From a virus: a stretch of DNA of 22,738 bases. The number at the start of each line of letters is the position of its first letter. Position 1 is the stretch's first letter. This document shows, in pieces, positions 6,175-22,164 of the stretch. Both the position numbers and the translations under genes were made by a program. The notes beneath the pieces are model-generated. The model was not told the origin of the DNA. It was given only the letters and a program-made list of their open reading frames with translations, and did no database searches. The stretch lies in the IMG/VR virus record IMGVR_UViG_3300042386_001572, positions 1 through 22,738 of that record; one strand, given 5' to 3'.

Positions 6175-7296
6175 ATGGCTCAAATTATAACACAAGAACA
6201 AAAAGATAAATTATATACACAGGTATTTCACCTATTAGGTATGCCTGTCCGTGGAATTGAACTTACAGAGGAACAGATGGATACCTTTATGGAACTTTCA
6301 CTCTCTGAATATGAACAATATGTAAGTGATTGGTTAATTGAATCACAATGGTCCGCTTTGGCCGGTTTAGACGTAGATACACAATCTTTAACAAGAGCGT
6401 TTACTACGAGAAGTTTAGATTATGAAACTCAATACACTTACTCATATTCAAAGATTGTAGGTTTACAGGCGAATGGTCCTTGGGAAATGAAAAAGGATTT
6501 TATAACGATTGTAAAAGGTCAACAAACATATGAAGTTCCTGCTGGTCGTGAAATTAATGAACTTTTATGGTTTACACGTGCAGAATTAACCGATTCTATT
6601 ATTGACCCGTTCTTAGGTGGATTTGGTGGATTAGGTGGTGTTGGATTTGGTGGTATTGGTGGATTTGCTCAAATGGGTAATGCGGGTTCTTATTTTATGA
6701 TGCCGGCATATGATTTGTTAGCGAGAATGCAAGATAGAAGTTTAAAGAATAGACTTATTGGTGGTGAATTAACATACAGAATTACCGCAGGTCCTGAAGG
6801 TAAAAAATTGGTTCATTTATATAATGTACCAGGTGGTAAGTTTGACTTCGCAAACGTTGCTTCTAATAATTTCAAAGTTTGGTATTGGTATTATGATGTT
6901 AATGATGGTGATAGAGATGATTGTTTAGCTAAAAATAAAGATATTATTAAGTTACCTTCGGATGTTGAAATGGAAGATATGACATGGGAATCTTTAAATA
7001 AACCAGCTCAAAACTGGGTTAGAAAGTATTTGATTGCATACTCTAAAGAAGGTTTAGCAAGAATATGGGGTAAATTCTCAGGAGATTTACAAGTTCCAGA
7101 TAGTGCAGTTAAATTAGATTACTCAACATTACTAACTGAAGCTAAAGATGAAAAGATGAAATTAGTGGAAGAATTAATGCAAAGATTAGAAAGACTCCGC
7201 CCCGACAAACTTCTTGAAAGAAAAGCCGGCGAAGCGGAGAATCTAAATAAGGCACTTAAGTTTAGAGCAATGCCATCACCATTTAATGTAATCTAA
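6175..7296 (+). CDS. Probable T4-like neck protein (gp13-like)
   Basis: A 373-residue protein starting MAQIITQEQKDKLYTQV. An in-frame ATG nine codons upstream would run through the TATTTATA motif, so the start at 6175 is preferred. The N-terminus, LLGMPVRGIELTEEQMDTFMELSLSEYEQY (21-50), matches the pattern of T4-type neck proteins: L-G-x-P-V, then I-x-[LV]-[TD]-x-[ED]-Q, then a helix ending in E-Y. Later come GQQTYEVPAGREINELLW (115-132) and WYWYYDVNDGDRDD (236-249), plus a long amphipathic helix (WESLNKPAQNWVRKYLIAYS), consistent with a connector-ring protein. Residues 147-163 are a glycine/phenylalanine-rich insert, unusual for this family. T4 gp13 is 309 residues. The gene lies on the opposite strand to the other neck and tail genes and overlaps the polymerase gene by 4 bases at the 3' end. 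The family assignment is moderate. Confidence 0.5.
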   Translation: MAQIITQEQKDKLYTQVFHLLGMPVRGIELTEEQMDTFMELSLSEYEQYVSDWLIESQWSALAGLDVDTQSLTRAFTTRSLDYETQYTYSYSKIVGLQANGPWEMKKDFITIVKGQQTYEVPAGREINELLWFTRAELTDSIIDPFLGGFGGLGGVGFGGIGGFAQMGNAGSYFMMPAYDLLARMQDRSLKNRLIGGELTYRITAGPEGKKLVHLYNVPGGKFDFANVASNNFKVWYWYYDVNDGDRDDCLAKNKDIIKLPSDVEMEDMTWESLNKPAQNWVRKYLIAYSKEGLARIWGKFSGDLQVPDSAVKLDYSTLLTEAKDEKMKLVEELMQRLERLRPDKLLERKAGEAENLNKALKFRAMPSPFNVI

Positions 7297-10190
7297 CTTT
7301 CAATTACATGAAAGGCATAATCGTGACCATTGGTTTCAATTATCTCTTCTTCATTTGACTTAGTACTTTCAGCCTGAAGTGTAACCACTTTTCTATTATG
7401 TTCCACCCAATATTGGTCAGCAAGTTCTAAACTATTTTCTACATACATAAAATAAGGGTCTCTTTGTACTCTATTCCAAAAGATTACTTCACTATCAGAT
7501 AGTGTCATAACTTCATCTAATTTATCTTGACCTTCTTCTTTTAATGGAAACCCATTAACAAGATCACATTGAGACTTAGTAAAGTATTGTCTGTCTTTTG
7601 GGTCTTCAATTAATATATCTTCTCTAATTGCCGGATTGAAAACAACTAATAAAGGTTCAACACGTTTGTTGAAATTATTTAAATAACGAGGAACATTATA
7701 ATCACCTTTTAAATCAGGATTGTTTTGTATTTCTTTCTCATCAATCATGTAACAGTTCACCTCAATAAAATCATTTGGCATTGGATAACCATTCTTTGCA
7801 GTAAATTCTTCTTGTTGTTTCTTTGTTGGTTTTGTAATCTTTTGTACATCACCTGATGATTTTTTAGAACCATTATTAACATAATAAATTGTATCACCTA
7901 AACCCGCAGGATAATCACTATTCATAATTAATTCCATATGTGCTTGACGAGACATTAATGAACCAGCTTTAGTAGTTTTAGTAACATACTTTTTATATTC
8001 ATTAACACTTTGTTTAACACGTGCTTTATTTGCTATCTTTGATAATGGAATTTCTTTTTCATAAATCTTTGTTACATAATCGTAATATAATTCTACGAAA
8101 GAATGTCCATCACCATTTAACAAATACTTTAATCCTTCATCCAAGAACTCAACAATATATGTTTGTAATTTTTTAGATTTAATTGTATTACCTGTTAGTT
8201 TAATTTTCTCTTTTCCTTTCTTCATCATTTTAATAATGTAGTTCTTACGAGAAACATTAATACAAGCCGGTGCAACATAGTCAATATCTAAACCCATTTC
8301 ACCTCTCATGAATATATCATTGAACTCCGCAGTATGTGCTTCAATACCTACATATTCTTTTCCTTCTGTAACTAATTCATTTAATCCTTTACCAACATAT
8401 ATTGCATCCTTTGCACTATCGGGTGTTTCAAAGTTCACACCATCTGTATCCATTACTAGAGGTTTATAACCCTTCTTCATATAGAACATAATCATCATAC
8501 GTAAACACTGACGACCAATACAAGTAATGGTTTCACCTGAATTCATTTCACCCCAAGGGAATACGTGTGGTGCGGATAAACTACCGAAATATGCGTTGAT
8601 AAAAATCTTAATTGGTAATTGTTTACGATCATATACCTCAGACATAACAGGATCACTATTCTTTAATTCACCCGCTAAGTTTTTATATTTAATACGAATG
8701 TTTCTGAAATATTTTAACATTGATTTTTGAACTCCCATAACATCACAATCAGGAAACACATCATATACTAATTGAATTGATGGATAGAGTGATGAGTAGT
8801 CAAACTTAACAATGTTCTTTGCGTATCCCACATTTAATAAACGAGATAATCCACCTGTGAAAGCACGTTTCTCATCTTTTGCTGGTATTGCCAAGTTGTG
8901 TTCGTATGACCACGCTAACATGATAATTTTCCACAGTGTTGCAGTTCCCATAGTTGCAATTCTTTCATACGTGGTAGGAACCAATTTAGAAAGTAAGAAC
9001 GTTGATTGAGAGAAACTATCATCTACAACCATAGTTTCATACAAGTCATCATCAAGATATTGTTCCACAATTTTTCTTCCTGTCCATATTTCAAACTTAC
9101 CTGGATATTTTTGTGTTAAATTTTCTGTACCAGGTTCTCCAATTTGTTTGTATCCACCTGTCTTTGGATTTACATAATAACTTTCGTTATCAAGATATAT
9201 TTTGGAAATCTTTGAACCATCTACGTATACACGATTAGGTTTTTCTTTCTCCAAATATGTTGTAATATATTTCAATCCCCAACTTTTAATTTCACTATTA
9301 ATTGCCTGAGCACGTCTTACAGAATGGGCAATATCAATAATATTGAAACCCCATATAACGTGTTGTTTATATGGTTCAATTTCATTTGCAAGTTTTAACA
9401 TTCCTTCTTTCTCTTTCATTCCTTGCGTTGTGAATATTTGTGTTAAACCATCAACATCAACACCAAGAATTTCTGCACGTTTTAATATAAACGGCCAGTC
9501 AAAGAACGCTGAGTTATAACCTGCAACAATGGTTGGTTTTAAATCTTTAATGTATTTGAAAAATCTTTCTATACATTTCTTCTCACCGTCTTCACCAAAT
9601 GCTGCTATTGTTTCATTCATACCACGGTTGTCCTTAACTCCAATTAATATAATGACACAAGTCTCAGGATCAAGACCTGTGGTTTCAATATCAAATACAA
9701 ATCTATTAACTCCACCGTAATCATCAATACCCTTAAACAATCTTTTTTTCTTCTGTATAAGATATTGTTCTACAGGGTTTAAGATAGTAAACAAATGTCT
9801 ACACTTTTCATCCCATGGATTTAATCCACCCATCCTAAAGAACGATACCAAATCCGTATAAGATTTAATACTTCTAACAATATGAGTCATACCATTTTCT
9901 AAACGTTCGTTGCCGTGAGTATCCAACTTTTCAATTAGGATACCAAATTCACCCATACGTTTTTTCTGCATTGCCTTTGAATCTCCATAGAAATTCATAC
10001 CTGTCAAATCACCTACCCATAAGAACGGTGTAAATGTATCAGGTTTAACGATTTTCCCTTGTTCAGGATCTTGAATAATTTTGTAGATTGTATTTGTGGG
10101 ATAGTCGTATTCAACTCCGACGATATACATTTCATCGTCGCCACCATTGAGGAAGCCTTCAATAACTTCCTGAGAGATAACCTCTTTCAT
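7293..10190 (-). CDS. Family B DNA polymerase with 3'-5' exonuclease (T4 gp43 type)
   Basis: A 965-residue replicative polymerase, near the 898 of T4 gp43. The exonuclease has Exo I FVFDIETTG (D167, E169), Exo II GYNSAFFDWP (N226, D231) and a plausible Exo III at YLDDD (Y378, D382). The polymerase has motif A in KFDYSSLYPSI (D464), motif B as KIFINAYFGS (K528, N532, Y534, G536) and motif C as VMDTDGVNF (D581, D583), where most family B enzymes have DTDS. All catalytic carboxylates are present, so it should be active. A KKLQTYIVEFLDEGLKYLL thumb segment follows. No Shine-Dalgarno or TATTTATA precedes the ATG. The 90-base leader holds a small hairpin at 10223-10236. The gene ends tail-to-tail with the neck gene, the two stop codons sharing CTAA. 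Confidence 0.95.
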   Translation of the reverse strand: MKEVISQEVIEGFLNGGDDEMYIVGVEYDYPTNTIYKIIQDPEQGKIVKPDTFTPFLWVGDLTGMNFYGDSKAMQKKRMGEFGILIEKLDTHGNERLENGMTHIVRSIKSYTDLVSFFRMGGLNPWDEKCRHLFTILNPVEQYLIQKKKRLFKGIDDYGGVNRFVFDIETTGLDPETCVIILIGVKDNRGMNETIAAFGEDGEKKCIERFFKYIKDLKPTIVAGYNSAFFDWPFILKRAEILGVDVDGLTQIFTTQGMKEKEGMLKLANEIEPYKQHVIWGFNIIDIAHSVRRAQAINSEIKSWGLKYITTYLEKEKPNRVYVDGSKISKIYLDNESYYVNPKTGGYKQIGEPGTENLTQKYPGKFEIWTGRKIVEQYLDDDLYETMVVDDSFSQSTFLLSKLVPTTYERIATMGTATLWKIIMLAWSYEHNLAIPAKDEKRAFTGGLSRLLNVGYAKNIVKFDYSSLYPSIQLVYDVFPDCDVMGVQKSMLKYFRNIRIKYKNLAGELKNSDPVMSEVYDRKQLPIKIFINAYFGSLSAPHVFPWGEMNSGETITCIGRQCLRMMIMFYMKKGYKPLVMDTDGVNFETPDSAKDAIYVGKGLNELVTEGKEYVGIEAHTAEFNDIFMRGEMGLDIDYVAPACINVSRKNYIIKMMKKGKEKIKLTGNTIKSKKLQTYIVEFLDEGLKYLLNGDGHSFVELYYDYVTKIYEKEIPLSKIANKARVKQSVNEYKKYVTKTTKAGSLMSRQAHMELIMNSDYPAGLGDTIYYVNNGSKKSSGDVQKITKPTKKQQEEFTAKNGYPMPNDFIEVNCYMIDEKEIQNNPDLKGDYNVPRYLNNFNKRVEPLLVVFNPAIREDILIEDPKDRQYFTKSQCDLVNGFPLKEEGQDKLDEVMTLSDSEVIFWNRVQRDPYFMYVENSLELADQYWVEHNRKVVTLQAESTKSNEEEIIETNGHDYAFHVIES

Positions 10191-11591: not shown

Positions 11592-13862
11592 TTAATCTAT
11601 AGGTGCAATGATTGTCGACTCTATATACCATTGACCATAATTATCTAACGCAGTTAATATAGGTGTTCCATCAAACCTTCTTTGAATAGTTTTGTTATAA
11701 TATTCATAAACCATTGGGGTTGCACCAATCGTATCTACCGTCAAAACTAAATCACTCGTTCCACCAAATGAACCAGAAGCTATTGTTATTGTATCACCAG
11801 TTAGGTATAGTTTTCCAATGGTTGAAGCTTCAACATTACTAACAAGAGTTGACGCAACAGTGATTGTAAATACTGAATTTACTCCTGCCCCTGATGATGT
11901 TCCAGTTACACCTGTATAAACTCCATCGGTTCCGGTAGTTGATGGGTATGAAAAATTTTCGGGGTTTCCTAAATATGTGGTAAAATCTATTCCATTTAGA
12001 GGAGTTTCTATTCTATTAAATTGAAAAGAGTTACCTACTGTATTGTTTTCAAACTCATCCCCAATATTATTATTATAAAAATATTCTCCAATTGTATTGT
12101 TATTAAAATAGTTTCCAATTACATTACCTCTACTATTGCTTCCACCAAATCCAAAACCTTCACCGATGTTGTTACTATAAAAACTATTTCCAATTTGATT
12201 ATATCTAAAATCATCTGTTATTCCGTTATCATAAAAATTATTTAATATAAAATTATTTTGAAAATATAATCCTATATCATTTGAATAAAAGTCGTTTCCA
12301 ATGTTATTTTTTAAAAAATAATTTTCAATCTCATTTCCCCCAAAATTGTTCCCAATTTTATTATCATCAAACTGACCCACTATTAAATTCGCCTTAAATC
12401 CATTACCAATATGATTGTCCTCAAAAGTTGATTGATTGTTAATTGATCCTAATGTATTATTGTGAAAATCAAACCCAATTGTATTATTATCAAAAGAGTG
12501 ATAAATGATGTTTGTATAGAAACTATTTCCCACCGTGTTATTATCAAAACTATTTTTAATTACATTATTAGTAAAATTACCAACTACGTTATCATTAAAA
12601 CTATTTTGTATAATATTATTACTAAAAGAGGATTTAAATGTGTTATCAGAGAAATCATCATCACCAGTGTAAAAATTACCATAGAATGATCCCATTATTA
12701 AATTTTTTTCAAAATCGTACGAGTCATTATCACCTAAATTGTTGTTATAAAAATCATTTTGAATAATATTATTTAGAAAATCACATATAATTATGTTATT
12801 GTAAAAATCTGAAGATATTGTATTGTTATCAAAATCATTATCAATTACATTACCATAGAAATTACCACTAATTGTATTATTTGTACAATCATCATTAAAG
12901 GTATTGTTTCTAAAATTACTTCCGAATGAATTGTCTCTATGTGGACTATCTCTAAAAACATTGTTTGAAAGCAAGAAAGTATCTCCATTATCTATAGTGT
13001 TTGCAACTCTATTACCACAAGTATTGTTAAAACATCCATTATAACTTGTAAATGTTTTGTATTCTGTAAATCCTGTGTTAGAAATAATATTGCTTTGTTT
13101 GTAAGACATTCCATTATCGGTTATACTGTCTGTATAGAAAGTGTCATTGACATTATAAATTGTGCGTCCCGTAACAGTCATACTCGTTTCTGTATCAATA
13201 GAAACAATTTCATAAAAATCTACATTATATGCGTTTGAACTAACAATACCTATAACTTCTCCGGTAGTTCTATTTGTAAAATTTGTTCCTACACCCGTTA
13301 CAACACCAACACTATTAATACTTACTTTTCCGACATAAATTTCCTCAGCACTATATGTATTATATCTCTTAAATAAAACTTCTCTAAAGTCATAATCAAA
13401 AGCATTTCCTTTATCGTCAATTCTATATGTTATTCTACCAAACGCGGCACCCGCAGTAACTTCGGTAGATGTAAAATATGGATCATATTGTATTGTATCA
13501 CCAGAATATTCTGGTTGATATGCGTGTTCTGAAATTTTATCAACATCAGTTGCCAACACAAGTATAGGTGCAACATTACCTTGTTTGTAATTACCAGTTT
13601 CAATTGTACTACCAGTGTGGTCATAATCAGGTTGGTCGTAACAAGTTTTGAAATCTGTGATTAAATAATGTTTACCTGGTGTTAATGTTGCACCTGTTAA
13701 AAGAGAATATAACTCACTATGTGTTACTTCCTCATATATTGAGACACTTAGTAAATTACTTACGCTTACTTTTTTAGTTTCTCCGTTGTTAACTATTGGT
13801 AACATATCTCCCGATAAAGGTTCGGTAAGTTCATTTAATTGTGAAATTTTTTGATCTGCCAT
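11592..13862 (-). CDS. Tail fibre/spike with about 32 nonapeptide repeats (predicted beta-solenoid)
   Basis: A 756-residue fibre protein. The N-terminus, KISQLNELTEPLSGDMLPIV followed by N-N-G-E-T-K-K-V-S-V-S-N-L-L, is the common attachment peptide of phage tail fibres; the collagen-like fibre upstream starts with a similar one. Residues 45-260 are an unassigned beta-rich region. Residues about 317-620 are a repeat array with consensus F-x-x-N-x-[IV]-G-N-x. I count 32 copies, mostly exactly nine residues apart (for example Phe 335, 344, 353, 362, 371 and 480 through 570), with insertions near 375, 398, 472 and 573. Inward Phe and Ile with Asn between them suggest a solenoid with an Asn ladder. 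It is neither pentapeptide (five-residue period) nor RTX (no GGxGxD). Residues 625-756 form a beta C-terminal cap (GTDGVYTGVTGT, TGDTITIASGSFGG). It probably contacts the host surface. Confidence 0.75.
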   Translation of the reverse strand: MADQKISQLNELTEPLSGDMLPIVNNGETKKVSVSNLLSVSIYEEVTHSELYSLLTGATLTPGKHYLITDFKTCYDQPDYDHTGSTIETGNYKQGNVAPILVLATDVDKISEHAYQPEYSGDTIQYDPYFTSTEVTAGAAFGRITYRIDDKGNAFDYDFREVLFKRYNTYSAEEIYVGKVSINSVGVVTGVGTNFTNRTTGEVIGIVSSNAYNVDFYEIVSIDTETSMTVTGRTIYNVNDTFYTDSITDNGMSYKQSNIISNTGFTEYKTFTSYNGCFNNTCGNRVANTIDNGDTFLLSNNVFRDSPHRDNSFGSNFRNNTFNDDCTNNTISGNFYGNVIDNDFDNNTISSDFYNNIIICDFLNNIIQNDFYNNNLGDNDSYDFEKNLIMGSFYGNFYTGDDDFSDNTFKSSFSNNIIQNSFNDNVVGNFTNNVIKNSFDNNTVGNSFYTNIIYHSFDNNTIGFDFHNNTLGSINNQSTFEDNHIGNGFKANLIVGQFDDNKIGNNFGGNEIENYFLKNNIGNDFYSNDIGLYFQNNFILNNFYDNGITDDFRYNQIGNSFYSNNIGEGFGFGGSNSRGNVIGNYFNNNTIGEYFYNNNIGDEFENNTVGNSFQFNRIETPLNGIDFTTYLGNPENFSYPSTTGTDGVYTGVTGTSSGAGVNSVFTITVASTLVSNVEASTIGKLYLTGDTITIASGSFGGTSDLVLTVDTIGATPMVYEYYNKTIQRRFDGTPILTALDNYGQWYIESTIIAPID
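12003..12914 (-). repeat. Coding array of 27-bp units (nonapeptide repeats)
   Basis: The DNA encoding residues 317-620 of the fibre is built from degenerate 27-base units, seen on the plus strand as recurring [AT]TTATTNTNAAA with AAAATNNTT spacing. The units differ at most synonymous sites, so this looks like an old, selected protein repeat and not a recent expansion. Confidence 0.75.
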
Positions 13863-13912: not shown

Positions 13913-16900
13913 TTAGTATTTTGCAGCTAATGCTAGAACTCTATTGTTCATTACAGTATTACCATTCGTTGTAACTGACCAAGTATCACCATCAGTTGAT
14001 GTTGCCAATTGATTTGTTCCGATACCACCAGCAACCCATTTAGTACCTGTCCACGTTACACAATATGATTGTAATGAGAATATTGTATTACTATTTGTCG
14101 CACCTGACCATGTTATACCATCAGATGAATATGCTAATGCATTTGTTCCTTGACCTGCAGCAACCCATTGTGAACCATTATAAGCTATACCATAACCAGT
14201 ACCTGTGATTCTACTATTTCCACTTGTTGAACCTGACCATGTTATACCATCTGATGAATATGCAATTCTATTTGCACCTGTACCAACTGCAACCCATTTA
14301 TCTTCACCCCAAGCGACATTCCAACATGTACCTGTGAATATTGTACCACTATTTGCAGATGCCGTCCAAGATATACCATCATCCGAATATGCTATTGTAG
14401 TTCTATTTCCAGTGCCACCTGCAGGTGATGAACCTACGGCAACCCATCTACTTCCATTATATGCCACAGTATTTGGTACACTACCAATCACATTTGAATT
14501 TGATGCCGCTGTCCAAGTTATACCATCTGTTGAATATGCAAATTTGGCAGCACCCGACGAAATACCAACCGCAACCCATTTATCACCTCCATATGCAACA
14601 CCTCTAACATTTGTTGTAAACATGGATGAACCATTTGTTGATCCCGACCATGTATTTCCATCAGAAGACCAAAGTAAAGCGTTTGAATTACCTCCACCTG
14701 CAGTTCCTCCTGCGACAAATATATTTCCATCAGTTGCAACAGCAAGTGCTGGTTGAGTTATAAATGTGGCACCATTAGATGAATTTGTCCAATTATCACC
14801 ACCATCATATGAATAACCTAATACGTTTACTCCACCCGCAGCAACAATAATGTTTGAAGGTATTGGTGTTGCAGTTGGTGTTGGTGTTACCGTTGGTGTT
14901 GGTGTTGGTGTATCCGTAGGTGCTGGTGTATTTGTAGGTTCAGGTGTTGGTGTTACCGTTGGTGTTACCGTTGGTGTAGCCGTTGGTACTGGTGTACTAG
15001 TTGGGTTAGGTGTTGGTGTAGGTGTTGCTGTTGGTCCACCTGGTGTTGGTGTTGGAGTAGGTGTTCCACTACCAAATGTTATTGATATTGTACTACCACT
15101 TACGAATGATGCGTTTGATGTTTTTGTTTGTGTACAAGATTCGGTATTAATTACAAAGAAACTATTTCCGCCACCAACATTTTGAATTCCAAACGAACCT
15201 GGCGTTGTACTTGTATATGTTGCGGTATCACCATTTTGTGATATTGTAATTGTTCCTGTTCCACCTGTGTATCCACTAAATTGTGATGTATAATCGGTAC
15301 CTACACTATCTTTTACACTAAAATGAAGCATTAAACCACTAACTTTATTAGGATTATACGTTTCTATGCTACTTCCTGTGACAATCATAAATAATGCGTT
15401 TCCATTTCCTGATGGTGCTCCTGCATTCATAACACCTTCATCACTATAGAAAAACCAAGATCCCGCTCCTGCTTCACTTGTTGGTGTTGGAGTTGGTGTA
15501 CTTGTTAATGTCGGAGTGGGGGTTGGTGTATCGGTAGGTGGTACCTCCGTAGCTGTTGGTGTAGGGGTAGGTGTACTTGTTAATGTAGGTGTAGGAGTAG
15601 GTGTACTTGTTAATGTAGGTGTTGGAGTAGGTGTTACTAATGAAGCTTCACAATCATCACAATTCAAATGAAAAGTAAGTGGTGAGCCTGTATCTGTTGG
15701 GGTAGCAACAATCTTATTGACAATTCTGTAACATCCACTTGGAGTTGCTCCTGTAAATGTTATGTTGTTTATGTCGCCAGCAGCGAATGCTCCTGGTCCT
15801 AAATCAGCAACTAATACGTTCAAATTAGTACATCCTGAAATTGTATAAGTTGTTGTTGTCCCATCAATACAATCCGAACAATTAGAATAAGATGATGATA
15901 TTGGGTTACTACCATCTGTAGGTGCTGTATCAATTTTATTAACAATGGTATAACACTCACTTGCAGTTGAACCTGTAAAATCTAAATAGAATGTATCACC
16001 AGGGAAAAATGCTCCTGGTCCTAAATCAGCGACAATAACATTTGAACTACTACATCCCGAAATTGTATAAGTTGTTACTCCACTTAAATCAATTGTAGGT
16101 GTAGGTGTACTTGTTGCTGTCGGAGTTGGTGTTGGTGTCATTTCAGGGAACACAGCTTTTAATGTTGCCGTATCACCAGTGATAGTTACAATGGTGTTAG
16201 ATGAATTAGGTACAGGTAAATTAACATTAGTACCCTCCCAATTTTGAAATAACCCACTACCACTAAACGCGATAATAGAATATTGTTGGTTTTTAATAAC
16301 ACTGATTGTTGTATCTGATGTATATGTGACTCCACCGAATGAAATGCCATCATAACCCATAACTATATCAATATCTAACGACGCCATTTCTGGTGTTGGT
16401 GTTGGTGTAGATGTCGGACCCGGCGTTGGTGTAACTGTTGGTGTTGATGTTGGTGTTGCGGTTGGTGCAACACAAGTTAATAATGCCACAACTTGATTCG
16501 ATACAAATTCAAATATAAAAGGTGCATTAAATTCACCATCGGAAAGAATGTAATAACCATCTGTTATGGATGCTAAAACATTTGAATTTGCACCAAGGTA
16601 AGCATAATCACCAACACTTACATCTGGATTATCAAAATAAACATCAAAAGAACCACTTATAGTGCAAGTTTCTTCATTTAAACAAGCAATACCGTCACAA
16701 GCTAATTCCAAATCAGTCCCAAATGGACCTGTAGTATTAGTTCTATCAATTAATGTATATTGGAATCCGTGATTAATTGGTGTAGGAGTTGGTGTTGGTG
16801 TCGGTGTATCTGTAGGTGCCGGTGTTGGTGTAGGTGTTGGGGTATCTGTCGGTACCGGTGTATCTGTTGGTGTCGGTGTATCTGTAGGTGCCGGTGTTGG

Positions 16901-17566
16901 TGTAGGAGTTGGGGTTGTTGATGTAGATTCTAATAAAATATTATCTCCATTTTCTTGTAATAAACTATCACCATTCTCTTGTAATAAACTATCACCTAAA
17001 TTATCAGTTGGTGTCGGTGTTGGTGTTGCAGTTGGTGTTGGTGTATCAGTTGGTAACGGAGTTGGTGTATCAGTTGGTAACGGAGTTGGTGTATCAGTTG
17101 GTAACGGAGTTGGTGTATTAGTTGGTATTGGAGTTGATGTAGGTGTTGGTGTACTAGTAGGTGCTGGCGTTAATGTTGGAGTTGATGTTGGTGAAGGTGT
17201 TGTACCCATACCGAAGTTTGTCCAATACCCATTACTGTTCAACCAAATCTTAGCATCATTACCTGAAGCAAAAGTTTCATTAAATTGAAAATTACATAAA
17301 TTAATAAATGAATTTTCGGTTAAACCTCCTGAACCCCAAAATCCAATATTACATGGAATAAAAGAAATTGGGTTTGGGTGTGTCCCACTTAAATCAGCAT
17401 ATCCTATGACATATTGTAAATCTAAATCTGGAGATGCCCACCATTTAACTCCACCTATATTGGATGAATAATCTTGTGCTGTTGTACCTATAGCTAAATC
17501 ACCTATTTGTTCTGTACCGTCTATCAAACTACCGGTATTGTATGCAATTGGAAGTATTGTTGCCAT
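13913..17566 (-). CDS. Modular phage adhesin: Thr-Pro linkers joining small domains, seven-bladed beta-propeller at C-terminus
   Basis: A 1217-residue tail adhesin read as beads on a string. Residues 1-120 are a phage N-terminal domain ([37 protein letters not shown]). Six Thr-Pro-rich linkers (122-189, 215-263, 367-393, 476-492, 645-697, 835-904) separate the following: an 8-residue triplication (191-214, GDSLLQEN), a beta domain with four Cys (264-366), an InlB-B-repeat-like domain (394-475, with FQNWEG and [10 protein letters not shown]), two tandem four-Cys domains (about 497-569 and 571-640), a jelly-roll-like domain (702-834) and a C-terminal propeller (905-1217). The propeller has seven blades, each with S-x-D-G-x-x-W, close to the sialidase Asp-box, and W-V-A-V-G strands. 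Propeller tips usually bind ligands, so this end probably recognises the host. A TATTTATT variant lies 18 bases upstream. Confidence 0.8.
14855..15064 (-). repeat. (TP)n linker-coding repeat, linker 6 of the large adhesin
   Basis: A 70-residue Thr/Pro linker before the propeller. On the plus strand it is an almost uninterrupted run of GGTGTT/GGTGTA-type units. The same DNA pattern recurs at the other linkers of this gene and of the gene at 17612-19663. Confidence 0.85.
15476..15634 (-). repeat. (TP)n linker-coding repeat, linker 5 of the large adhesin
   Basis: A 53-residue Thr/Pro linker ([10 protein letters not shown] repeated). It includes near-identical direct repeats about 30 bases long (GGTGTACTTGTTAATGTAGG and its copies), a good substrate for slippage. 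Confidence 0.85.
16091..16141 (-). repeat. (TP)n linker-coding repeat, linker 4 of the large adhesin
   Basis: A short Thr/Pro linker of 17 residues between the InlB-like domain and the tandem four-Cys domains. Confidence 0.8.
16388..16468 (-). repeat. (TP)n linker-coding repeat, linker 3 of the large adhesin
   Basis: A 27-residue Thr/Pro linker before the InlB-like domain. Confidence 0.8.
16778..16924 (-). repeat. (TP)n linker-coding repeat, linker 2 of the large adhesin
   Basis: A 49-residue Thr/Pro/Asp linker with direct repeats of the segment coding for [11 protein letters not shown]. Confidence 0.85.
16928..16996 (-). repeat. Three tandem 24-bp units coding GDSLLQEN
   Basis: [16 protein letters not shown] and GDNILLES follow each other without spacing. 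The first two copies are nearly identical in DNA (TTCTTGTAATAAACTATCACC on the plus strand), so the duplication is recent or kept by conversion. The block lies between two Thr-Pro linkers. Confidence 0.8.
17000..17203 (-). repeat. (TP)n linker-coding repeat, linker 1 of the large adhesin
   Basis: A 68-residue Thr/Pro linker with three exact-looking tandem copies of a 30-base unit ([10 protein letters not shown]; plus strand GTATCAGTTGGTAACGGAGT), a sign of recent tandem duplication. Confidence 0.85.
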
Positions 17567-19710: not shown

Positions 19711-22164
19711 TTATTCACCTACCCATCTTGCCTGAAACCAAGACCTTCCTTCGTATTGCGATCTTGAATTAGATGCCCCACCAACATTTACAATGTTTAT
19801 GAAATCAGTTGAACCATTTAGATACACAATTTTTGTTACCTGTTGAGCCACTGCACCAAAAGCACCAGTAGTAACAACAATTCCATTATTTTTTTTAATT
19901 GCCATAGACGCTTCACTATTTCTATATACATCATAGGTTGCAGTAATTTCCCAATAACCAGCCTTCTGCGGAGTAAATGTATAAGTTGAAGTATTAAACC
20001 AACTACTTGATACATTAACCGTATTATTCACAACACTATATCTACAAGGGTCTTCAGTAAATGAACCTGGTAAGGTATAAGTAACATCTGCGTATGCTTC
20101 AAGTAAATAAAGAGTTGGTGCAAGATTTGTTGATACACCATTTCCTAAAGTAGTCAAATCAAAATATCCACCTCTAGCGTTACCACCTTGTTCAAAAATT
20201 CTTAATCTATTTTGATAAGAATCAATTGTAATTCCACTACCTGTAAGTGAGTTGTTTGTTTGTGATTTTGCTAATAAAATTTCTCCACCTTCATCACCAC
20301 TTCCAGTTCCAACTTGTAATTTAGTTGTTATTATGTTCATTGAACCACTTATTATTACTGAACCTGTAATATTTTGAGTTGTTGAAATTGAACCTGTTGT
20401 TAGAACATTACCACCTGTACCTGTAACATTTAAGTTTCCGCCAACATTCACATCACTTGTTGTGGTTAAACCACTAATTGCGGTTAGTGCAAATGTTGGG
20501 TTGATTTGAATATAGTTTGCTACTGCTGTACCATCACTTCCGGCTGAAACGGTTCCTCCACCCCAAGCATTGATGGTATAAACTGTTGGTGTAGTTACTG
20601 TTAATACCCAAGTTCCTTGAAGTCCATTATTTACTGTACCGCTGGCTTGATACCAATTAAAAACACTGGTGTTTGCAACCTGTGAACCACCTGTAAATAT
20701 ACCCATTGCACTATAACCGCCATTAACTTTTGCCTGAGCAGTAATCAAGTAAGTACCTGGTTGTAGAGTTGGCAGGGTAAAGACGGTAGTTCCTGGACTT
20801 GAGGCTCCAACCACTTGATTATAACTGTTTGACAAAGTCACTTTACCAACTGTTGCATTCATCGTTCCCGTTGCGGTTGATTGAATTGCAACCACACCTG
20901 TTGTGAGATTTGCCACACCATAAGTTGTTGGTTGTCCGTTTACAATTACATTATCAAATGAACCTGTTGGAGCCGTTAAAGTTGTTCCACTATATGTTAA
21001 ACCTGATTGAACGGTTGCGTTTGTTCCTGAACCATTATATGTTATTAAACCACCGGCTGTTGAACCTGTAAGTGTTACTAAACCTGATGTTCCGCTAGTA
21101 CCACTTGTTCCCGCCGTTCCTGATGAACCTGATGTTCCTGAAGAACCTGAAGAACCTGAAGAACCACTAGAACCTGAAGTTCCTGAAGAACCATCTGATC
21201 CTGATGAACCTGAAGTACCAGCAGTTCCTGAAGTACCTGCAGTTCCTGAAGAACCACTAGAACCTGATGAACCATCTGAACCTGAAGAACCTGAAGTTCC
21301 TGATGTACCAGCAGTTCCTGAAGAACCACTAGAACCTGACGAACCTGATGTTCCCGAAGAACCGTTAGAACCTGACGTTCCACTTGTTCCTGAGGAACCA
21401 TTAGAACCACTCGTTCCTGATGAACCTGATGAACCTGATGAACCTGAACTACCATTAGAACCGGATGTTCCACTAGTCCCGGCAGTACCTGAAGAACCTA
21501 TACCAGATGTACCACTAGTACCTGATGTTCCATTTATACCGCTGGTTCCAGATGTACCGTTAATACCGCTAGTACCTGAAGTACCATCACTACCACTTGA
21601 ACCATTAGAACCCGATGTTCCACTACTACCATTAGAACCTGATGTTCCTGAACTACCGTCACTTCCACTAGTACCTGAAGAACCGTTAGAACCTGATGTT
21701 CCATCCACACCACTAGTTCCTGAACTACCACTAGTTCCTGACGTTCCGTCTATACCATTTGATCCTGATGAACCATTAATACCTGAAGTACCACTCGTTC
21801 CATCAATACCAGATGAACCACTTGTCCCATTAATACCCGATGAACCAGATGTGCCACTACTTCCATTTGAACCTGATAATCCACTTGTTCCTGAGGAACC
21901 ATCACTTCCTGATGTACCAGAACTTCCGTTAGAACCCGAAGAACCAGAACTACCATTAGAACCTGATGTTCCACTACTTCCGTTTGACCCTGAAGTACCT
22001 GACGTTCCAGATGAACCGGCAGTACCTGAAGTTTGTGAATTTCCCAATATGGTTTCACGAGTTACTTTATAAGTGGTTGTTTCACCACTATTATTCATAA
22101 TAAAATATGCTCCTGTTGTGTCCCCAGTGAATAATGGTAATTCGTTTACTTTTTTATTGTTCAT
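19711..22164 (-). CDS. Collagen-like tail fibre with C1q/TNF-like jelly-roll domains
   Basis: An 817-residue fibre. The N-terminus, KKVNELPLFTGDTTGAYFIM, is the phage-fibre attachment peptide also seen on the nonapeptide fibre. Residues 47-361 are Gly-X-Y triplets, about 104 of them, nearly all G-[ST]-[SNDAT], without proline, and with one visible break (Gly-Ile). Then come a beta domain (about 432-553: TLPTLQPGTYLITAQAKVNG, AVANYIQINPT), a fibre segment with GDEGGEILLAKS and NRLRIFEQGG, known from phage fibres, and a second jelly roll (about 690-817: FTPQKAGYWEITATYDVYRN, MAIKKNNGIVV, VYLNGSTDFI, WFQARWVGE) in the C1q pattern. Collagen-like stalks ending in jelly rolls trimerise, as in C1q. 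Without proline, the stalk's stability must come from elsewhere. The C-terminal domain is the likely receptor binder. TATTTATC lies 4 bases upstream of the start. Confidence 0.8.
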   Translation of the reverse strand: MNNKKVNELPLFTGDTTGAYFIMNNSGETTTYKVTRETILGNSQTSGTAGSSGTSGTSGSNGSSGTSGSNGSSGSSGSNGSSGTSGSDGSSGTSGLSGSNGSSGTSGSSGINGTSGSSGIDGTSGTSGINGSSGSNGIDGTSGTSGSSGTSGVDGTSGSNGSSGTSGSDGSSGTSGSNGSSGTSGSNGSSGSDGTSGTSGINGTSGTSGINGTSGTSGTSGIGSSGTAGTSGTSGSNGSSGSSGSSGSSGTSGSNGSSGTSGTSGSNGSSGTSGSSGSSGSSGTAGTSGTSGSSGSDGSSGSSGSSGTAGTSGTAGTSGSSGSDGSSGTSGSSGSSGSSGSSGTSGSSGTAGTSGTSGTSGLVTLTGSTAGGLITYNGSGTNATVQSGLTYSGTTLTAPTGSFDNVIVNGQPTTYGVANLTTGVVAIQSTATGTMNATVGKVTLSNSYNQVVGASSPGTTVFTLPTLQPGTYLITAQAKVNGGYSAMGIFTGGSQVANTSVFNWYQASGTVNNGLQGTWVLTVTTPTVYTINAWGGGTVSAGSDGTAVANYIQINPTFALTAISGLTTTSDVNVGGNLNVTGTGGNVLTTGSISTTQNITGSVIISGSMNIITTKLQVGTGSGDEGGEILLAKSQTNNSLTGSGITIDSYQNRLRIFEQGGNARGGYFDLTTLGNGVSTNLAPTLYLLEAYADVTYTLPGSFTEDPCRYSVVNNTVNVSSSWFNTSTYTFTPQKAGYWEITATYDVYRNSEASMAIKKNNGIVVTTGAFGAVAQQVTKIVYLNGSTDFINIVNVGGASNSRSQYEGRSWFQARWVGE
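21084..22026 (-). repeat. Gly-X-Y (collagen-like) coding repeat
   Basis: 9-base units coding G-[ST]-S, G-S-[ND] and similar triplets, with varied synonymous codons (GGT, GGA, GGC and GGG for Gly; TCA, AGT and TCT for Ser). The varied codons argue that the repeat is kept by selection at protein level and not by fresh slippage. One triplet is short (Gly-Ile, near 21500). Confidence 0.85.

Follow-up and report, generated by a model that had tools for sequence, protein, structure and literature searches.

The subject of this analysis is a repeat-bearing protein encoded in a 22.7-kb virus record (IMG/VR record IMGVR_UViG_3300042386_001572, 22,738 nucleotides), the whole of which is referred to as the window and along which all positions are numbered. 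Its gene, P0001, appears in the list of open reading frames (ORFs) at 11592..13862 on the minus strand and encodes 756 amino acids. The protein is likely to be a tail fibre of modular build from a large phage with a contractile tail, its rod being a right-handed solenoid of 18-residue turns. In the proposed model, residues 1–42 would attach the protein to the virion or to an adjoining fibre protein, residues 43–255 would serve as a conserved connector, and residues 296–625 would form a rigid rod, namely a right-handed parallel beta-solenoid with two nonapeptides per 18-residue turn. In each turn, two Phe (position 1) and two Ile/Val (position 6) would face inward, alternating five and four residues apart. 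Four short strands would most likely make up the turn, which would resemble a pentapeptide-repeat coil cut from 5+5+5+5 to 5+4+5+4 residues; its bends would be made by the Asn at position 4 and partly by Gly-Asn at positions 7–8, and an Asn ladder along the solenoid is plausible. The exposed positions 2, 3 and 9 would provide a changeable surface that meets the host cell together with the C-terminal domain.

The repeat occupies residues 317–620 (12003..12914, minus strand), where 32 nonapeptide units of the consensus F-x-x-N-x-[IV]-G-N-x, two per coil, were delimited by eye from their spacing. The pattern F-x-x-N-x-[IVL] occurs 27 times, with starts from residue 335 to 613, and five degenerate units starting at residues 317, 326, 393, 404 and 577 (326 opens with Cys and 577 with Ser) complete the total of 32. 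The strict consensus F-x-x-N-x-[IV]-G-[ND] is found at 8 places only. In residues 266–630, F-x-x-N-x-[IV] was observed 25 times, whereas 10,000 shuffles gave a mean of 1.19 and a maximum of 6; successive Phe residues exactly nine apart were observed 21 times, against a mean of 1.86 and a maximum of 8. The initial annotation, made from the DNA letters alone, had counted 32 nonapeptides at this location, and the count is confirmed at a level well above the shuffles. The ten consecutive nine-residue Phe intervals that it described are also present (Phe 480, 489 and so on to 570), as are the irregular spacings of 8, 11, 13, 14 and 16 residues (422–430, 393–404, 371–384, 466–480 and 561–577).

These irregular spacings had been proposed to be loops, and the long ones indeed correspond to four insertions of 2–7 residues, after each of which the strands of the predicted model resume. 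The insertions lie, all on the minus strand, at residues 380–383 (12714..12725, spacing 13), 402–403 (12654..12659, spacing 11), 475–479 (12426..12440, spacing 14) and 570–576 (12135..12155, spacing 16). The last of these reads F-G-F-G-G-S-N, and its F570, G571 and G573 are invariant across the 20 rows of alignment A2. The hydrophobic residues had been described as alternating five and four residues apart, and the periodogram agrees with this: the power is 3.79 at a period of 4.5 (shuffle maximum 1.49) and only 0.10 at a period of 5 and 0.10 at a period of 6. The alternation of five and four residues between positions 1 and 6 averages to a hydrophobic period of 4.5 residues.

The number of units per turn was examined by using relatives of the window protein. 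Two IMG/VR scans gave 95 loci (L002–L096), the second scan being limited to the best 80 of 152 relatives, so that the true number of relatives is larger. Proteins with five or more N-x-[IVLF]-G motifs are encoded in 93 of the 95 loci, and 64 of these proteins are distinct. If one turn consists of two units, each exposed residue should lie over its counterpart two units further on, and even lags should be more alike than odd ones. For the 35 proteins kept from the 64 (less than 30% shared 6-mers), the identity at positions 2, 3, 5, 7, 8 and 9 was 0.132, 0.212, 0.134, 0.188, 0.130 and 0.157 at lags 1 to 6, respectively. Among proteins that offered at least 30 comparisons at the lags concerned, identity was higher at lag 2 than at lag 1 in 32 of 34 and higher than at lag 3 in 28 of 34; lag 4 was above lag 3 in 24 of 32. 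The even-minus-odd difference over lags 1–5 was 0.071, and shuffling of the unit order within runs gave a standard deviation of 0.006 and a z of 12.7, all of these values coming from a set re-picked with the window protein added. The synonymous codon identity stayed at 0.59–0.62 at all six lags. This flat profile speaks against a recent duplication of 54-nucleotide blocks, which would raise the even lags in the synonymous codons too. A three-unit coil of 27 residues was rejected, as lags at multiples of three match less (−0.033). The sequence-only test bears out the earlier suggestion of two nonapeptides per coil and indicates a turn of 18 residues.

The structure predicted by AlphaFold2 is of uneven quality along the protein. 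For the full-length protein (16 sequences), the predicted local distance difference test score (pLDDT) was 70.9 and the predicted template modelling score (pTM) was 0.50, while the ten-residue blocks from 401 to 570 reached 83–96. The predicted beta-solenoid covers residues 296–625 (11988..12977, minus strand), of which 296–624 were modelled separately; with 20 sequences, this solenoid alone gave a pLDDT of 89.6 and a pTM of 0.87, and the five models ranged from 87.6 to 89.6. A solenoid fold, as had been proposed, is therefore what structure prediction gives for the repeat region. DSSP assigned short strands, mostly of two residues, at every Phe and Ile of the solenoid model, which amounts to four per 18 residues.

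The matches of Foldseek were given a second look by VIA superpositions, in which the 50 matches listed had Z scores of 14.6–20.6 on the predicted solenoid. The best was EtpA (Z 20.6, root-mean-square deviation (rmsd) 3.0, 326 of 329 residues), followed by the tailspike of cyanophage Pam1 (Z 20.4, rmsd 3.6, 320 residues) and, as the third-best superposition, Vag8 (Z 18.8). The Marinomonas antifreeze protein 3p4g superposed with Z 17.4 and an rmsd of 4.0 on 275 residues, with a span of 312 in the model against 304, and in the Sf6 tailspike (Z 17.1) 321 model residues spanned 446. These two span ratios are consistent with an 18-residue turn in the model. PL6 lyases superposed with Z of about 15–16 (7o7t: 16.3, 18% identity, 261 residues). 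The predicted model appears as a right-handed coil of parallel strands, given that superposition keeps handedness and that the leading targets are right-handed helices. When the full-length model was searched by Foldseek against BFVD, 18 rows had E ≤ 0.001, including pectate-lyase-like and beta-helix phage proteins, with a query template modelling (TM) score of at most 0.21; the best match, H9NBX6, reached E 3.2e-8 across 150 columns.

The pattern of variation among close relatives shows which repeat positions are constrained. The close set comprised ten sequences, three of them identical to others, leaving seven distinct sequences including that of the window; L010 lacks the N-terminus. The numbers of variable sites at repeat positions 1 to 9 were 1, 20, 12, 0, 7, 4, 0, 8 and 17 (of 32 each, and of 31 for position 9). 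The corresponding ratios of nonsynonymous to synonymous polymorphism (pN/pS) were 0.04, 1.55, 1.39, 0, 0.54, 0.52, 0, 0.56 and 1.55, a crude estimate that ignores codon bias and shared ancestry. Five of the 96 sites at positions 1, 4 and 6 are variable, against 64 of 191 elsewhere (Fisher p 1.3e-8), and the exposed positions 2, 3 and 9 vary at 49 of 95. The Asn at position 4, part of the consensus in the initial annotation, shows no change at any of the 32 places. Outside the repeats, residues 1–42 vary at 1 of 42 sites and residues 622–756 at 66 of 135. Such a combination of a constant base, a rod whose core is fixed while its skin changes, and a variable tip is what would be expected of a fibre that contacts the host. 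Position 7, which was not counted as inward, differs between units (G, D, S, I, K and others in residues 317–621) yet does not vary at any of its 32 places in the seven close sequences; positions 8 and 9 beside it do vary.

The assignment to a tail fibre gains support from the relatives and from the neighbouring genes. PHROG families of tail fibres and tail spikes match the N-terminus of relative L015, as does Pfam Mtd_N, described as the N-terminal domain of a phage tropism determinant, and relative L012 carries a Pfam PA14 domain near its C-terminus; four further relatives scanned against Pfam gave no match. Among the window ORFs, a tail-sheath match was found (PHROG 23, E 1.3e-9), and the three long ORFs directly upstream of the repeat gene on the same strand, which contain either Thr-Pro linkers or a collagen-like segment, are read as further fibre proteins. 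With the L015 and L012 modules and this gene neighbourhood, a receptor-binding tail fibre is the best reading, and from it we infer the location in the virion, oligomerisation and receptor binding. A place elsewhere in the virion, as a capsid decoration or scaffold, is unlikely. The window does also encode matches to a head-tail adaptor (PHROG 211) as well as to the sheath; however, the modules of L015 and L012 point to the tail fibre, and the combination of variable exposed residues and C-terminus with a conserved N-terminus argues in the same direction.

The superpositions on PL6 alginate lyases and on phage tailspikes and depolymerases (Sf6, HK620 and K64-1 S2-4) also raise the question of an enzyme-bearing tail spike, that is, a beta-helix with a polysaccharide lyase or hydrolase site like those of PL6 lyases and capsule depolymerases. 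Fold likeness alone shows no function, and Pfam gave no lyase or hydrolase match for the window protein. In addition, its units are broken up by the four short insertions only, and Lys and Arg are scarce (14 of 365 residues in 266–630). An enzymatic spike is possible, with nothing found that points to an active site, and we rate it somewhat below even the unlikely placement elsewhere in the virion.

Several results weigh against a tail fibre with a right-handed 18-residue-turn rod. The full-length model is mediocre by the scores given above, and AlphaFold2 is known to draw solenoids too readily from repetitive sequence. Foldseek found no match to the solenoid at E ≤ 0.001 (the best was 4.4e-3), and the TM score was at most 0.28 in 49 of the 50 matches listed, 8vbb having 0.42; for the full model, one match had E ≤ 0.001, with a TM of 0.12–0.15. 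In the window protein alone, the even-lag signal is weak (same sign, 0.06, a value reached by 3.6% of shuffles), and relatives of the NTFGN type show none, with an identity of 0.48–0.50 at lags 1–6 (403 units, 52 of 62 proteins kept). The 23 bacterial proteins described below, taken alone, show no even-lag signal either, and these two sets together leave the evidence incomplete for the bacterial form. The idea that only one half of the coil serves as the receptor side was considered and rejected, since the variable sites at positions 2, 3 and 9 ignore parity (odd 26, even 23). Grouped by unit number modulo 3, they amount, in raw counts, to 22 of 33, 15 of 33 and 12 of 30. The window protein has no PHROG match, its attachment module being deduced from relatives, and BLASTP of its N-terminus against the N-terminus of the collagen-like neighbour gave no match.

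The tendency of AlphaFold2 also bears on the idea that the periodicity arises from composition or slippage and that the solenoid was imposed by the prediction. The region is rich in Asn and Phe (86 and 44 per 365 residues in 266–630), and the NTFGN-type units are far more uniform than the window-type units. On the other hand, the DNA copies have diverged, with Tandem Repeats Finder giving just 2.2 copies of 27 bp and 1.9 copies of 11 bp, the constraint is position-specific, and the exposed residues match at even lags without synonymous matching. Such an artefact is accordingly regarded as highly improbable.

The repeat is distributed widely among viral relatives. The IMG/VR contigs that carry relatives reach 436 kb, and the complete viral relatives have a common domain, corresponding to residues 43–173 of the window protein, followed by repeats, with N-termini of many kinds. 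The tally of 2200 viral units from the 64 proteins gave Phe at position 1 in 82%, Ile at position 6 in 69% and Gly at position 7 in 44%; Asn at position 4 is 100% by construction, being part of the search pattern. Among the viral stretches, 21 have the NTFGN repeat pattern and 27 have the domain core, six loci being in both. At three of 35 dereplicated viral loci (L026, L027 and L031), at least two ORFs with at least seven N-x-[IVLF]-G motifs are present in the fetched stretch. In a phage collection of 50,697 records, one match was found at E ≤ 1e-5, to the N-terminal domain (E 1e-6) in LR756504.1, a 636-kb uncultured phage; at about 582–584 kb of this record (L169), the domain is followed, as judged by eye, by degenerate nine-residue repeats.

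A bacterial form was found by scanning the genomes of 84,980 prokaryote species, one per species, with a degenerate DNA pattern for the domain core. This gave 23 stretches, 18 of them titled as Bacteroidales or as groups belonging to Bacteroidales, and the remaining five from Erysipelotrichales (two), Christensenella, Candidatus Scybalousia and one further bacterium. The viral and bacterial forms of the domain aligned by hhalign with a probability of 99.4% and E 1.7e-21. Fifteen of the 23 encoded proteins contain five or more N-x-[IVLF]-G motifs, 11 of the fifteen coming from Bacteroidales-titled records, and at least ten of the 15 read N-T-F-G-N-x-C-x-x by eye. The 188 units of these 15 proteins have Cys at position 1 in 73%, Phe at position 6 in 74%, Gly at position 7 in 80% and Asn at position 8 in 66%. 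The inward pair is thus swapped from large/medium (Phe/Ile) in the viral units to small/large (Cys/Phe) in the bacterial units. In one Bacteroidales relative (L117, 2014–3507, minus strand), the units read C-x-x-M-S-F-S-Q-x, with Met replacing the Asn of position 4.

Ten ORFs adjoining five of the 23 bacterial loci were scanned. At L104, the neighbours match an integrase, an endolysin and a portal protein, which identifies L104 as a prophage; a baseplate hub was matched at L098 and a baseplate wedge (E 2e-4) at L114, and three neighbouring ORFs from L116 and L102 had no match or matched only families of unknown function. The others are probably prophages as well. These phage-type neighbours count further towards the tail-fibre reading. 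The domain is rare in whole genomes, as would be expected for phage cargo: with profile A4 it was found in 4 of the 247 genomes from one order, and with profile A5 in 2 of 296 from the phylum, the centre genome being counted each time. In an initial scan of genomes, the complete alignment picked out 25 stretches, none of which was confirmed.

Comparison with known repeat systems places the rod within a familiar class and sets the repeat apart. The tail spikes of Pam1, Sf6, P22 and HK620 superpose on 276–320 residues with Z 14.6–20.4 among the matches listed and share the setting of a phage fibre, whereas the window rod has a regular repeat with 18-residue turns of two similar nonapeptides and no lyase domain was found in it. 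EtpA and Vag8, the latter an autotransporter, are bacterial secreted proteins with only 7% and 5% identity to the window protein, and their turns appear to be longer (438 and 420 residues against 329 and 318 in the model). A profile search with the solenoid alignment against PDB sequences returned only Crov588 (6nyr, E 0.0011) and two 423-residue chains (E 0.055). Although Crov588, an FNIP-repeat protein, is the best sequence-profile match in the PDB, its best single stretch has E 0.18 with 20.5 bits of bias, reflecting a common Phe/Asn composition rather than register. The phmmer searches with the window protein and with L110 gave nothing below E 0.04.

The unit, written as N-x-F-x-x plus N-x-I-G, resembles a pentapeptide repeat with one residue missing from every second copy. 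It shares with pentapeptide repeats (PF00805) model strands every 4–5 residues and a polar residue two before the inward one (N-x-F and N-x-I as against A-[DN]-L), but it alternates 5+4, has Asn in place of Ala/Ser, and takes 18 rather than 20 residues per coil. The PF00805 consensus gave 1 isolated match and 0 tandem pairs in residues 317–620, with no Pfam match. The pentapeptide-repeat structure 6fls ranked 34 in Foldseek with E 0.27 against the solenoid model; pentapeptide-repeat structures are absent among the 50 VIA matches listed, although, as they are short, this absence decides nothing. For the left-handed beta-helix hexapeptide, there were 0 matches to three tandem [LIV]-G-x-x-x-x hexapeptides, in line with the lack of power at period 6.

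A calcium-dependent RTX-type beta-roll that has lost its textbook consensus was also considered. RTX repeats have a nine-residue unit with two nonapeptides per right-handed coil, according to PMC6891781 and PMC3034196, and the window repeat has the same coil count on the evidence of the even-lag signal and the 3p4g superposition. The protein 3p4g, an RTX-type antifreeze protein, namely the ice-binding protein of Marinomonas primoryensis, has 19-residue repeats according to PMC6891781, and it superposes on the model with a near-equal residue count. In contrast, the calcium motif GGxGxDxUx is lacking (0 GGxGx[DN] in 756 residues), the window unit has two inward hydrophobics where the RTX nonapeptide has one (PMC6891781), and the model coil has four short strands, not two. 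An RTX-type roll is therefore considered very improbable. Ice binding through the Thr at position 5 was also considered and was discounted on inference alone.

The initial annotation had distinguished the repeat from pentapeptide, hexapeptide and RTX repeats; the consensus and period tests uphold this distinction, while the number of units per coil equals that of RTX. Its description of the fold as uncommon holds for the repeat itself but not for the shape as a whole, since this superposes on parallel beta-helices, a class common in phage tail spikes, nor for the occurrence of the repeat, which is common to many phages. Its structural guess was largely right. A repeat with an 18-residue two-unit turn and no calcium motif was found described neither in the open literature searched nor in Pfam, PHROG or NCBIfam. 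The repeat family is new; the overall fold class to which it belongs is familiar from phage tail spikes, namely the right-handed parallel beta-helix. We see an even chance that the repeat represents an uncatalogued four-stranded "5+4" right-handed solenoid of 18-residue turns, which would stand structurally between the pentapeptide-repeat and RTX coils, would serve as a widely shared shaft without calcium motifs for receptor-binding fibres of large uncultured phages and Bacteroidales prophages, and would have a core tolerating the swap from Phe/Ile to Cys/Phe. A profile based on the repeat could name many probable tail fibres of uncultured phages, and the slim coil without a calcium motif is a test of the shortest possible turn of a right-handed beta-helix. 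The map of fixed and changing residues by position predicts the host-facing faces.

The remaining segments of the protein, all on the minus strand, are as follows. Residues 1–42 (13737..13862) form an N-terminal module, which is replaced by other modules in relatives. Residues 43–173 (13344..13736) contain the conserved "ITDF...YDFR..LFKRY" domain, which is homologous by hhalign to a domain of the bacterial, mostly Bacteroidales, proteins. Residues 174–255 (13098..13343) are a beta-rich continuation of the N-terminal half in the AlphaFold2 secondary structure, and residues 256–295 (12978..13097) form a low-confidence linker, with a pLDDT of 27–37 in the blocks spanning 251–300. Residues 626–756 (11595..11987) form a predicted beta-rich C-terminal domain, marked also by its variation among close sequences. 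As a whole, the 756-residue protein matched 0 families in Pfam or NCBIfam (E 1) or in PHROG (E 0.1).

Further matches in the window are a helicase (PHROG 62 and Pfam SNF2) and a family B DNA polymerase at 7293–10190 (minus strand). The nearest named relatives of the polymerase are those of Salinibacter phages, with only 24.5% identity, which places the phage in a poorly sampled lineage. Two of the upstream ORFs are probable members of the same fibre cluster as the repeat gene. One, at 13913..17566 (minus strand, 1217 amino acids), has Thr-Pro linkers and six S-x-D-G-x-x-W motifs in residues 967–1190, spaced 43–49 residues apart; this series at its C-terminus is perhaps a beta-propeller-type repeat. 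The other, at 19711..22164 (minus strand, 817 amino acids), has a collagen-like stretch (Pfam Collagen, E 7.1e-45), which, as read by eye, consists mainly of G-S-S, G-T-S and G-S-N triplets and is almost free of proline.

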